The notes beneath the pieces were generated by a model. That model was not told the origin of the DNA and made no database searches. It saw only the letters and a list, made by a program, of their open reading frames with translations. From NCBI GenBank assembly GCA_031082145.1, contig JAVHLP010000003.1:1-64000 (forward strand): a DNA stretch of 64,000 bases, given 5' to 3'. Position numbers and translations under genes: made by a program. The DNA is from a bacterium (GTDB taxonomy: Bacteria; Bacillota; Sulfobacillia; UBA995). This document shows, in pieces, positions 50,567 to 56,228 of the stretch (the stretch's first letter is position 1; every line of letters begins with the position of its first letter).

Positions 50567-50629
50567 GCGGTTGAGGCAGGGGTCGCCGCCGGGACGGCCC
50601 CTGCTTTCTTGTTCGGGAGGGCGGAGGAA

Positions 50630-52696
50630 GTGGCCGACCGCGAGTTCGCGGAGGTGGCGGTGGACGCGCTGGCCGGGCCGGGCAGCGGCGCCCTGCACTA
50701 CCGCCTGCCCGAGAGCCTGCGGGACCGGGTCGTGCCCGGCGCCCGGGTGCGGGTCCCCTTCCGGCGGGGACAAAGTGACGGCTATCTCCTGGGCTTTGTA
50801 GACCAGCCGGCGGTGGGCGAGTTGAAGGACGTCACCGCCATCCTCGAGGAGTTCCCTCCCATCCCCGCCGACCTCCTGGAAATCGGGCAATGGCTGGCCG
50901 GCCGTTGTGTCTGCGCTCCGGCCGAGGCCCTGAAGGTACTGGCCCCCGCCGTCCGGGCGAAGCCGACAACCCGGGTGATCCTGGCCGTCGACGCAGAGAA
51001 GCTGCCCGCCCGCCGTCCGGGCGGTCCGGCGCGAGTCCTGGCCTTGCTGGCGGAGAAAGGCCGGGCCGACTTCGGGCGCCTGGTCGAGGTGACCGGGTCA
51101 CGCTCCCGGGCCCTGGAGATAACCCGCCAGTTGGAGCGAGAAGGTTTGGTCCGGCTCGAGCGCGGTTCTCGCCGCCATCAACCCGCTCCTGGCGCCTGCC
51201 CGGGGAGGAGGGTGGTCCCCCGGCCAGACGCCAGCCCACCGGCCTTGATCCACGGTGACGGCCGGTTGGAGTTGTACCTGGAGGCGATCGCCGCTTGCCT
51301 GGGGGCGGGCCGCCAGGTGCTGGTCCTGGTGCCCGAGATCGCCCTGGCCCCTCCCATGGCGCGGGTCCTCGAGGAGCGGTCGGGTGCCCGGGTCGTCCTC
51401 TGGCAGGGTGGGATGGCGGGCGCCCGGCGGGTGGCCCAATGGCGCGAGGTAGCCTCCGGTGGGGCGCCGTTGGTGGTGGGGACGCGCTCCGCCGTCTTTG
51501 CCCCGGTGCCGGAGCTAGGCTTGCTCATAGTCGATGACGAACATGATGAGGCCTACAAGCAGCCGGAGACCCCCTACTACCATGCCCGGGACGTGGCCCT
51601 GGAGCGGGCCCGCCGGGCCGGAGCCGGGGTGCTCCTGGGTAGTTCCACACCGTCGCTGGAAGCCTACGGTCACTGCCCGGGAGCGGTCCGGCGACTACCC
51701 CGCGAGCCCCGCCCTCCCGTCACCCTCGTGGACCTGCGGGAGGAGTTGAAGGCCGGCAACCGCACCCTGTTCAGCCGCGAACTCCGGGAGCGGGTGGAGG
51801 AGACCCTGAGCCGGGGCCAGCGGGTGGTTCTCTTCCTTAACCGGCGAGGTTACGCGGCCTCGGTGCTCTGCCGGGACTGTGGGTGGGTAGCCCGGTGCCC
51901 GGCTTGCGAATTGCCCCTGACCCTCCACCTGGGGCGGGCCGAGTTGCGCTGTCACTGGTGTGGGGGGAAGGCAGGGGTGCCCACCACCTGCGGCGGCTGC
52001 GGGTCGGCGGCGGTTCGCCACTTCGGCGCTGGCACCGAGCGGGTGCAAGCCGAGGCCCGGGAGGCCTTTCCCGGGGCCCGGGTTGATCGCCTGGACTCCG
52101 ACATCGCCCCCGGCCGGAGCGAGCAGCAGGCGATCCGCGACCGCTTCGCCGCCGGCGGCGCCGACATCCTGGTGGGCACCCAGCTCGCGGCCCGGACCCT
52201 CGCCGGTGCCGCCCTGCTGGGGGTGGTGGCCGCAGACACCATCCTGCATCTCCCTGACTTTCGCGCCGCCGAGCGGACCTATCAGCTGCTGGATGGGCTG
52301 TGCCGGCGGTTGGGGGAACGGGGACGGGTCCTGGTGCAGACTTATAATCCGGGGCATTACAGCCTGGACTGCCTGGCCCGAGGCGATGCCGACGGCTTTT
52401 ACGGGGAAGAACTGGCCGTCCGCCGGAGCCTGGGGTACCCGCCTTTCTCCGGGCTGGCCCGGATCCTGGTGGCCGGCCCCGCGGGCGCGGCCGGTGAGCT
52501 GGCGAGCGCCCTTCGGGCCGCCGGGGTCCCGGTGCTGGGTCCGGTTCCCGCCCCGGGGGGGCGCGAACGCTGGCGACTACTCGTCCGGGGAGCGACGGCG
52601 GCCGCCGTGGCCGTCGACGTGCGGGCGGTCCTGGCCCGGCCGCCGGCCCGGGCCCGGTCCATCGTCGTAGACGTTGACCCCATTGATGTGGCTTGA
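50630..52696 (+). CDS. priA: Primosomal protein N' (PriA) with degenerate Walker A
   Basis: 688 residues. The 3'-DNA-binding N-terminus, Walker B (LLIVDDEHDEAYKQ), the GSSTPSLEAY motif and the eight-Cys zinc module (CRDCGWVARCPAC, CHWCGG, CGGCG) are kept. The nucleotide-binding loop, normally GVTGSGKTEVYL, is reduced to HGDGRLELYLEAI at residues 208-220, without the essential Gly-Lys-Thr. ATP hydrolysis and unwinding are therefore doubtful. Actinobacterial PriA proteins are likewise annotated as lacking helicase function. GTG 50630 follows GGGAGGGCGGAGGAA. Confidence 0.9.
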   Translation: MADREFAEVAVDALAGPGSGALHYRLPESLRDRVVPGARVRVPFRRGQSDGYLLGFVDQPAVGELKDVTAILEEFPPIPADLLEIGQWLAGRCVCAPAEALKVLAPAVRAKPTTRVILAVDAEKLPARRPGGPARVLALLAEKGRADFGRLVEVTGSRSRALEITRQLEREGLVRLERGSRRHQPAPGACPGRRVVPRPDASPPALIHGDGRLELYLEAIAACLGAGRQVLVLVPEIALAPPMARVLEERSGARVVLWQGGMAGARRVAQWREVASGGAPLVVGTRSAVFAPVPELGLLIVDDEHDEAYKQPETPYYHARDVALERARRAGAGVLLGSSTPSLEAYGHCPGAVRRLPREPRPPVTLVDLREELKAGNRTLFSRELRERVEETLSRGQRVVLFLNRRGYAASVLCRDCGWVARCPACELPLTLHLGRAELRCHWCGGKAGVPTTCGGCGSAAVRHFGAGTERVQAEAREAFPGARVDRLDSDIAPGRSEQQAIRDRFAAGGADILVGTQLAARTLAGAALLGVVAADTILHLPDFRAAERTYQLLDGLCRRLGERGRVLVQTYNPGHYSLDCLARGDADGFYGEELAVRRSLGYPPFSGLARILVAGPAGAAGELASALRAAGVPVLGPVPAPGGRERWRLLVRGATAAAVAVDVRAVLARPPARARSIVVDVDPIDVA

Positions 52697-52707
52697 GGAG
52701 AGGACTC

Positions 52708-54150
52708 ATGGACGAACTGAAGCAGGTGGGGGACCCCGAGCTCAGGGGGCCGGCCGCGAGGGTGAAGCGGATCAACCGGGCCACCCGCGAGGCCTTGGCC
52801 CTGATGGCCGAGGCTATGGGAGCTTCCGGTGGGGTCGGGCTGGCCGCCCCCCAGCTGGGACTGGACCGCCGGCTGGTCGTGGTGGACGTGGGGCAGGGGC
52901 TGGTGCAACTGGTGAACCCGGAGCTGACCCGGCTCGAGGGTACGGTCACCGCCTGGGAAGGGTGTCTCAGCATCCCCGGGCTAACCGGCCTGGTTACCCG
53001 TCACGAGAAGGTCGCCGTGCGGGCCTTGGACGGTCGCGGGCACCGGGTATGGGTTGAGGGCGAGGACTTGCTGGCCCGAGCCTTGCAGCACGAGATCGAT
53101 CACCTGGACGGGGTTCTGTTCCTGGACCGGGCCGAGGCCTTTGAGTATGCGGGCGCGGAGACGGCCGAGGGCGAGGAACGCCCGCCCCGCCGGGGCGGAC
53201 CGCCCGGCCCCACCCCGCCGGTGCCCGTCCGCGACCTCCGCATCGTCTTCATGGGCACGCCGGCCTTCGCCTTGCCCACCCTGACGGCACTGTCGGAAGG
53301 TCCCTACCGGGTAGTGGGGGTGGTGGTCCAGCCCGACCGCCCGGCGGGCCGGGGCGGCCGGATCACGCCGGCGCCGGTGAAGGAGTACGCGCTCAGCCGT
53401 GGCCTACCGGTCCTGCAGCCGGCGCGAGTGGGTGAGAGCCTTGACCAGTTGGCCACCTGGAAGCCGGACCTGATCATAACCGTGGCCTTCGGCCAGCTCC
53501 TCCCCGGAGACCTCCTGGCCTTGCCCACCCGGGGTTGTGTGAACCTGCACGCCAGCCTGTTACCCCGGCACCGGGGGGCGGCCCCGATCCAGCACGCCAT
53601 CCTGCAGGGGGATCCGGTCACCGGGATCACTGCCTTCTACCTGGACGAGGGCATGGACACGGGCGACATCATCCTGAGGCGGCAGATCGCCGTCCGGCCC
53701 GCCGACACGTACGGCAGCCTACATGACCACCTCGCCGTCCTCGGGGCCGGCCTGGTGGAGGAGACGGTGCGGCTGATCGCCCGGGGGATTGTCCCCCGGT
53801 TGGCCCAGGACGAACTCGGGGCCACCCGGGCTCCTCGTCTGACCGCAGCCGACGAGCGTCTTGGCTGGCAGCTGCCGGCGGTGCAGTTGGCGCGGCGGGT
53901 GCGAGCCCTGGCGCCCCGGCCCGGGGCCTATACCGCCCACGACGGGCGCCGGCTGAAGGTGTGGCAGGCCCGGGCGGACACCGGCTCCGGCCGGCCGGGG
54001 GAAGTAGTGGCGGTGGAACCGGACGGAATACGGATTGGTACCGGAGAGGGCAACCTGGTACTGGAGATCGTGCAGCCGGAAGGCGGCCGGTCCATGGCGG
54101 CCGCAGAATATGCCCGCGGGCGCCACTTGAACCCGGGTGCCCTGCTCTGA
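52708..54150 (+). CDS. Fused peptide deformylase - methionyl-tRNA formyltransferase
   Basis: 480 residues in one frame. Residues 1-145 are a full deformylase: GVGLAAPQL (43-50), EGCLSIPG with metal Cys86, and QHEIDHLDG with His128, Glu129 and His132. A 30-residue Pro/Gly/Glu linker follows. Residues 178-480 are a full Met-tRNA formyltransferase: RIVFMGTPAFALPTL, then NLHASLLPRHRGAAPIQ with the catalytic Asn-His, and the C-terminal tRNA-binding domain. The two activities start and finish the N-formyl cycle and are usually separate adjacent genes (def-fmt). No stop or ribosome site separates them. ATG 52708 has GAGGAGAGG upstream. Confidence 0.93.
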   Translation: MDELKQVGDPELRGPAARVKRINRATREALALMAEAMGASGGVGLAAPQLGLDRRLVVVDVGQGLVQLVNPELTRLEGTVTAWEGCLSIPGLTGLVTRHEKVAVRALDGRGHRVWVEGEDLLARALQHEIDHLDGVLFLDRAEAFEYAGAETAEGEERPPRRGGPPGPTPPVPVRDLRIVFMGTPAFALPTLTALSEGPYRVVGVVVQPDRPAGRGGRITPAPVKEYALSRGLPVLQPARVGESLDQLATWKPDLIITVAFGQLLPGDLLALPTRGCVNLHASLLPRHRGAAPIQHAILQGDPVTGITAFYLDEGMDTGDIILRRQIAVRPADTYGSLHDHLAVLGAGLVEETVRLIARGIVPRLAQDELGATRAPRLTAADERLGWQLPAVQLARRVRALAPRPGAYTAHDGRRLKVWQARADTGSGRPGEVVAVEPDGIRIGTGEGNLVLEIVQPEGGRSMAAAEYARGRHLNPGALL

Positions 54151-54168: not shown

Positions 54169-54861
54169 ATGTTCCTCTTCGACGAGGGGTTCTTCCTGTT
54201 CGTAGTCCCGGCCATGGTCTTCGCCATGTACGCGCAGGCCAAGGTAAATGGGGCGTACGCCCGGGCCTCGCGGCTCGCCCCCCGCAGCCGGCTGACCGGC
54301 TCCCAGCTGGCCCGGCGGGTGCTGGATGAAACCGGCCTGCCGGAAGTGAAGGTGCAGCGCACTGATCGCCATCTGGGCGACCACTATGACCCCGCCCGGC
54401 GGGTGGTGCGATTGTCGCCGGCCGTGCACGACCAGCCCTCGCTGGCCGCTCTCGGCATCGCCGCCCACGAGGTGGGGCATGCCCTTCAGCACCACGCCGG
54501 CTACGCGCCCTTGGCGGTGCGCAACAGCTTCGTCCCCGTAGCCCGCCTGGGTACGGGGGCGGCCTGGCCCCTCTTCATCATCGGCCTGGTTGTCGGCGCG
54601 GAGCCGGGCATCTTCCTCATGAACCTGGCGATCCTCTTCTTCGGCGGGGCGGTGCTCTTTCACCTGATCACGCTGCCCGTGGAGTACAACGCCAGCTCCC
54701 GCGCCATGGCGTTCCTGCAGACGGGCGGCTACCTGCGGCCGGAAGAGGTCGGCCCCACCCGGCAGGTGCTCGATGCGGCGGCCCTCACCTACCTGGCGGC
54801 CGCGGCCGCGGCCATCGGCAATCTGGCCCGGATGCTGCTCCTCCGGCAGCGCCGCCGGTAG
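54169..54861 (+). CDS. Membrane zinc metallopeptidase (YugP type)
   Basis: 230 residues. An N-terminal helix is followed by the zinc motif IAAHEVGHALQHH near residue 102 and two or three further helices; SRLTGSQLARRVLDETGL and DHYDPARRVVRLSP are characteristic of the YugP family. Its position between fmt and rsmB is conserved in Clostridia. Its substrate is unknown. It overlaps the rsmB start by one base. Confidence 0.88.
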   Translation: MFLFDEGFFLFVVPAMVFAMYAQAKVNGAYARASRLAPRSRLTGSQLARRVLDETGLPEVKVQRTDRHLGDHYDPARRVVRLSPAVHDQPSLAALGIAAHEVGHALQHHAGYAPLAVRNSFVPVARLGTGAAWPLFIIGLVVGAEPGIFLMNLAILFFGGAVLFHLITLPVEYNASSRAMAFLQTGGYLRPEEVGPTRQVLDAAALTYLAAAAAAIGNLARMLLLRQRRR

Positions 54862-56228
54862 TGGCCGGCGGGGCCCGGGACCTGGCCCTGGAACTGCTGG
54901 GTGCGGTCGAGAGTGGCCGGGCCTACCCCGGCCTGGCCCTCGACCGGGCCCTGGAGCGGGGCGGGCTGGCGGGCGCCGACCGGCGCCTGGTCACCGAACT
55001 CGTGTACGGGACCACCCGGACCCGCAACACGCTAGACTGGGCCCTTGGCGTTCACCTGCGCCGGCCCCTGGCCAGCCTGCCGCAGGCCATCCGCAACGCC
55101 CTCCGGCTGGGGGCCTACCAAATCCTCTACCTGGACCGGGTACCGGCCTCGGCCGCCTGCAACGAGTCGGTCGAGTTGGCCCGCCGCTACGGCCACCGTG
55201 GAACGGCGGCGCTGGTCAACGCGGTCCTGCGCCGGCTGGCGGAGGAGGGATTGCCGCCCCTGCCGGAGGACCGCACTGACAGCTTGGCGCTCGCCCATCA
55301 CCACCCTCGCTGGCTGGTTGAACGCTGGCTGGACCGCCTGGGGGCGCCGGGGACGGTGGCCCTGCTGACCGCCAACAACCGGGTGCCCCCCACCGCGGTC
55401 CGCGTCAACCGGCTGCGGTCCAGCCCCGAGGCCGTGCTGGCGGAACTGGGGCGCCTGGGCATCGCCGCCCGGCCGAGCGAGCTGGCGCCGGAGGGGCTGC
55501 TCCTGGACGAGCACCCCCCGCTGCGGGGTCTCGGGCCCTTCCGCCGGGGCGAATTGCAGGTGCAGGATGAGAGTTCCATGCTGGCCGCCCCCGCCCTGGC
55601 CCCCATCCCCGGGGCCGTCGTGGTCGACGCCTGCAGCGCCCCCGGGGGGAAGGCGACCCACCTGGCCGAGCTGATGGGCGACCGGGGGGAAGTCCTGGCG
55701 GTGGATGTCAGCCGGGGACGGCTGCGACTGGTGGAGGAGGCGGCCCGGCGGCTGGGCCTGGCCAGCGTCCGGACCATGGTGGCGGACGCCCGGGAGCTGG
55801 GACGGCTCCTGCCCGGGGCTGCCGACGCGATCCTGGTGGATGCACCTTGCTCGGGTCTGGGCACCTTGCGGCGGCGTCCCGACCTGCGGTGGACCAAGCA
55901 ACCGGCGGACATCGCCTCCCTGGCCCGGCTACAGCGCGCGCTGCTGGACGGAGTCGCGGGTTGCCTCAAGCCGGGAGGAATCCTGCTCTACTCGACCTGC
56001 TCTGCCGAGCCGGAGGAGAACCAGGAGGTGGTCGAGTCTTTCCTGGAAGACGACGGCCGCTTCGGCTGGGAGGATCCGCTCGAGCGGCTGCCGGAAAAGG
56101 CCCGGCAATTGCTGGCCGGCAGGGACCGCCCCGAGGGGTCGCGGGGCCCGGGCTGGCTTCAGCTGTGGCCGCAGCTGGATGGCACCGACGGCTTCTTCCT
56201 GGCCCGGATGCGCAAGGAGCGGGGCTGA
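54861..56228 (+). CDS. rsmB: 16S rRNA m5C967 methyltransferase
   Basis: 455 residues. The NusB-like N-terminal domain (LVTELVYGTTRTRNTLDWAL) precedes the methyltransferase with SAM loop VVDACSAPGGKATHLAE, the two catalytic Cys in DAPCSGLGTLRRRPD and STCSAEPEENQEVV. The GTG start overlaps the previous stop, and the end overlaps rlmN by one base, so the run is densely coupled. Confidence 0.93.
   Translation: MAGGARDLALELLGAVESGRAYPGLALDRALERGGLAGADRRLVTELVYGTTRTRNTLDWALGVHLRRPLASLPQAIRNALRLGAYQILYLDRVPASAACNESVELARRYGHRGTAALVNAVLRRLAEEGLPPLPEDRTDSLALAHHHPRWLVERWLDRLGAPGTVALLTANNRVPPTAVRVNRLRSSPEAVLAELGRLGIAARPSELAPEGLLLDEHPPLRGLGPFRRGELQVQDESSMLAAPALAPIPGAVVVDACSAPGGKATHLAELMGDRGEVLAVDVSRGRLRLVEEAARRLGLASVRTMVADARELGRLLPGAADAILVDAPCSGLGTLRRRPDLRWTKQPADIASLARLQRALLDGVAGCLKPGGILLYSTCSAEPEENQEVVESFLEDDGRFGWEDPLERLPEKARQLLAGRDRPEGSRGPGWLQLWPQLDGTDGFFLARMRKERG

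Follow-up and report, generated by a model that had tools for sequence, protein, structure and literature searches.

Peptide deformylase (Def) and methionyl-tRNA formyltransferase (Fmt) are in general separate polypeptides. The closest described fusion of the two comes from Exiguobacterium, in which def and fmt are fused in four reference genomes among the 5,042 screened, a situation termed an unusual case (PMC12690207, Mol Biol Evol 2025). Growth of an E. coli strain deleted for def-fmt is restored by the fused gene of E. alkaliphilum, which thus complements the deletion; Exiguobacterium is the only case in which deformylase activity of such a fusion has been shown, and all of its genomes harbor a second intact PDF (PMC12690207). 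The separate def and fmt genes of one operon, as in E. coli, encode the same enzymes in the same adjacent def-fmt order, but with a stop codon between them and two polypeptides as products. In ArnA, a related formyltransferase fold is joined to a second enzyme, with another partner and another substrate.

Here, we analyzed a stretch of 64,000 nucleotides (the window) from a bacterium of the deep-branching class Sulfobacillia of the phylum Bacillota. The window contains a def-fmt fusion gene of 480 amino acids on the forward strand (52708..54150), which forms a single open frame from an ATG at 52708 to a TGA at 54150. Just 5′ of this ATG, a strong Shine-Dalgarno-like ribosome-binding sequence, GAGGAGAGG, was read from the sequence at approximately 52695..52703 on the same strand. 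The neighboring genes, assigned by Pfam, also lie on the forward strand: priA upstream (50609..52696), and a putative neutral zinc metallopeptidase (Zn_peptidase_2; 54169..54861) and the 16S rRNA methyltransferase gene rsmB (54861..56228) downstream. The overall order, yicC, gmk, priA, def-fmt, zinc peptidase, rsmB, rlmN, prpC, prkC, and rsgA, is usual for Bacillota.

The N-terminal part of the protein is a peptide deformylase domain (52711..53139, forward strand; residues 2–144), which matches Pep_deformylase PF01327 with an E-value of 1.9e-40 and 138 bits against a cut-off of 22.8, and the NCBIfam model TIGR00079 with 130 bits against a cut-off of 104. Its motifs I–III are intact (GVGLAAPQ, EGCLS, and QHEIDHLDG), the latter two agreeing with the definitions EGCXS and QHEXDHLXG (PMC12690207). 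A Pro/Gly-rich linker of 32 residues (residues 145–176; about 53140..53235, forward strand), with neither an ATG nor a good internal ribosome-binding site, leads to the methionyl-tRNA formyltransferase part (53236..54126, forward strand), which comprises both the catalytic and the C-terminal domain. In this part, Formyl_trans_N PF00551 covers residues 178–345 (1.3e-36) and Formyl_trans_C PF02911 residues 378–472 (4e-23; 82 bits against a cut-off of 21.1), whereas the full-length model fmt TIGR00460 scores about 282–283 bits against a cut-off of 201.5; the Fmt motifs NLHASLLP and GMDTGD are also present. Foldseek aligned the Fmt part with 2fmt_A at a target TM-score of 0.94, and the Fmt structures of E. 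coli (1fmt/2fmt) and B. anthracis (4iqf) matched over the whole part at 0.92–0.94; unlike the window protein, these have no Def domain. The protein scores far below the ArnA cut-off. The catalytic columns of both domains show no variation among 32 fused proteins, including the invariant Asn279, His281, and Asp317 of Fmt, which we take to correspond to the catalytic Asn108, His110, and Asp146 of the E. coli enzyme. A first-pass annotation of this DNA had described one frame with all three Def motifs and a complete Fmt including its C-terminal domain, and had placed the junction at 53150–53240; the former is borne out by the frame, the Pfam and NCBIfam matches, and the motifs, and the latter lies close to the linker as mapped here. 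As a single frame encoding Def and then Fmt, both complete, the gene belongs to the Def-Fmt fusions, and like the Exiguobacterium fusion it joins two full-length enzymes in one polypeptide.

Given that the DNA is 69% GC and the linker is open in most other frames too, an open frame across the linker is in itself weak evidence of a fusion, and the comparison with relatives is decisive. All three of the other genomes examined from the same family (G001–G003) encode an in-frame fusion at 63%–64% identity with an identical linker length. It is next to impossible that an assembly or sequencing artefact erased the stop codon between two ordinary neighboring genes. One base error could in principle mimic the fusion, since a single in-frame stop separates the genes in unfused members of the class, and the source genome is a draft of 34 contigs; nevertheless, independent genomes carry the fusion, with the same linker length in the three relatives and with 72 fused genomes in the class, including the complete chromosome of a type strain. 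We thus rejected the artefact.

The reading of the gene as a genuine fusion held up in several further respects. Linker lengths among the fused genes of the class span 24 to 213 nt (as measured here) without ever breaking the reading frame; the substitutions in the linker are biased to the third codon position in most of the groups compared; and the catalytic residues are intact. Moreover, most fused genes have no start codon for Fmt: an ATG occurs near the Fmt start in just 7 of 74 fused genes (72 from the class and two from Exiguobacterium) and a strong ribosome-binding site there in 2, although the comparison with separate genes is rough, as a stand-alone Fmt may start at a more upstream position. 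These counts also bear on whether one frame might give two products, via internal initiation of Fmt within the linker or via cleavage after synthesis. An in-frame GTG lies five codons before the Fmt core in the window gene, a few relatives (G002, G003, G036, G101, and G075) retain an ATG close to where Fmt begins, and some members have long linkers predicted to be disordered. Against this, the GTG of the window gene has no ribosome-binding sequence, 67 of the 74 genes lack the ATG, and the short-linker junction of other members is conserved and confidently predicted, which leaves hardly any space for cleavage or initiation; we therefore regard two products as improbable. Judged from its sequence, the window gene very probably encodes a genuine bifunctional Def-Fmt enzyme.

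We predicted the structures of two fusion proteins with AlphaFold2, using about 30 sequences for each model. The window protein was modeled as confident Def and Fmt domains connected by a disordered tether (pTM 0.69; pLDDT below 50 for residues 149–169). A relative with a short linker (L136, of family f25, that of Thermaerobacter) gave a pTM of 0.87 with a junction pLDDT above 95, and its two domains are predicted to adopt a fixed orientation. The short flexible linker proposed in the first-pass annotation is thus consistent with the tether of the window protein, but not with its short-linker relatives, which are predicted to be rigid. Linkers of 11 residues that share a conserved Pro-Glu are found in 34 genomes of 13 families. 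In two Exiguobacterium fusions (L048 and L049), the linker spans 8 residues (24 nt, by the measure used); that of the window protein is far longer and disordered. The C-terminal helix of E. coli Def binds the ribosomal protein L22 (PMC8712518), whereas the equivalent position of the fusion runs into the linker and a helix of this L22-binding type is not predicted. The fusion protein of Thermaerobacter marianensis (L256) has a Gly/Ala/Pro-rich insertion of about 40–50 residues in the Fmt C-terminal domain, which shortens its TIGR00460 match; similarly shortened matches were seen in family f25.

Searching public genomes for the same domain order, as had been suggested from the sequence, uncovered the fusion well beyond the window, as well as in Exiguobacterium. 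We extracted fmt loci from most genomes of the class and classified 139 of them: 72 from 25 families are fused, 45 have adjacent but separate genes, and 22 have no def found beside fmt, the locus lying at a contig end in some of these. In the large family f8, probably the Sulfobacillus group, no def was found beside fmt in 17 of the 31 classified genomes; there the def-fmt neighborhood broke up rather than fused. The fused copy in G105, a genome with 7% contamination, clusters with a different family and is possibly a contaminant.

To look beyond the class, we searched 398 genomes sampled across the phylum with a junction profile (A1), and 96 yielded a spanning match. All 87 matches from outside the class contain at least one stop, and eight of the nine from inside it contain none. 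In a second sample, 399 genomes of the class that includes G476, presumed to be Bacilli, the junction is free of stops in 37 genomes, all of one family (genome sizes of roughly 2.6–3.4 Mb), and interrupted in all 64 others; this stop-free family is almost certainly Exiguobacterium. Beyond the class and this Exiguobacterium-like family, the Bacilli and phylum samples yielded no stop-free junction. A scan of named genomes revealed fused genes only in Exiguobacterium among the best 80 loci of the matches listed, from which near relatives may be missing. Comparison with phage records by tblastn gave matches below 60% identity, mostly unannotated.

The unfused members of the class suggest how the fusion arose. 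In these genomes, the def stop often directly abuts the fmt start in frame, as in GAT TAA ATG in G009 and TAG ATG in family f37, and therefore one substitution suffices to fuse the two genes. The loss of this stop codon between neighboring operon genes would have given one polypeptide. On a tree of Def and Fmt, the fused state requires 10 changes against 47 in shuffles, indicating strong clustering, and at least three changes of the fused state are forced by well-supported branches. A single clade of the fused sequences of the class is not rejected (p-AU 0.37), which allows, without proving, one origin within the class. The Exiguobacterium sequences are placed inside Bacilli with starred support, and the fusion therefore has at least two origins, that of Exiguobacterium being independent of that of this class. 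One origin for both is unsupported by the tree, and we rejected it; common descent forms no part of the published definition of a Def-Fmt fusion. Most simply, def and fmt would have fused once in the ancestor of the class, or of much of it, and split again in some lineages, with Exiguobacterium acquiring its fusion separately.

Whether the genome holds another def or fmt had been raised in the first-pass annotation, and we found one extra def and no other Fmt (TIGR00460 and PF02911). The former is a stand-alone gene on contig C1 (69174–69620; L002) with DDCFS in place of EGCLS as motif II, and likely encodes an accessory Def; this genome may therefore possess a Def besides the fused one. This stand-alone gene shares a short stretch with a glutamyl-tRNA synthetase-like gene. 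A candidate second Fmt at C22:199062 was rejected, as its formyltransferase match comes without PF02911 or TIGR00460 and points to another formyltransferase. Across the class, the fused def is the sole PF01327 match in 58 of the 72 fused genomes (48 counted and 10 further read from the PF01327 table), and nearly all fused genomes have a single fmt in a TIGR00460 search, although most genomes are drafts, so that in any one of them a further copy may have been missed. These data bear on the notion that the fused Def is a relic and that the stand-alone Def on C1 does the housekeeping, for which the second def of the genome speaks. It is the fused copy that keeps GVGLAAPQ, EGCLS, and QHEIDHLDG, whereas the stand-alone copy departs from the canonical form of motif II, and most fused genomes encode no other Def; a relic is thus highly improbable, and we rejected it. 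In Thermaerobacter marianensis (G049; a single contig of 2,844,696 bp, chromosome published in PMC3035304), all three Pfam domains are present in the fused gene, which is the sole Def and Fmt. Unlike Exiguobacterium, with its second PDF in all genomes, most fused genomes of this class have no second Def.

Two further observations concern copy number. A second, divergent stand-alone Fmt occurs besides the fused Def-Fmt in G033 and G051 (family f28) and in G008; most bacteria have one fmt. In G059 (family f39; 92% complete), neither Def (PF01327) nor Fmt (TIGR00460) was matched, which could reflect either an incomplete draft or genuine loss of formylation.

The open-access literature that we searched contained no description of the fusion from this class. 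The kind of fusion is already known; as far as we found, what is added here is the lineage, the breadth, and the usual lack of a backup Def. To the same extent, it is new that the fusion occurs a second time, independently and far more widely, and that a short-linker form with 11 residues, predicted to be rigid, exists in 13 families.

Nascent chains would be deformylated by the N-terminal Def domain and Met-tRNAfMet formylated by the C-terminal Fmt domain, each acting by its ordinary mechanism, and the two domains would be produced at 1:1. Direct channelling between them is unlikely, because the product of Fmt would pass through ribosomal initiation before Def acts. The equal amounts of Def and Fmt claimed at first follow if there is a single product; in that case the 1:1 ratio would be fixed, and both activities would be lost together through a nonsense or frameshift mutation within Def. 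The first-pass annotation also proposed that the fusion may couple initiation to N-terminal processing. Any role beyond this ratio and joint loss, including the placing of Fmt near the ribosome, is speculation. A bolder proposal, to which we give a low probability, is that the short-linker members (11 residues, 13 families, including Thermaerobacter) are rigid two-domain enzymes in which joining has a function beyond dosage, such as keeping Fmt close to the ribosome or allowing one domain to control the other, and that a large part of the class depends on them as the only Def and the only Fmt.

The synthesis of nearly all bacterial proteins is framed by formylation and deformylation, and Def is a target of antibiotics. 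With both steps on one polypeptide and usually no spare copy found, the class offers a natural test of the need for independent control, and bears on why a seemingly opposed pair of enzymes fused at least twice. Thermaerobacter marianensis, being cultured and fully sequenced, makes the fusion testable.
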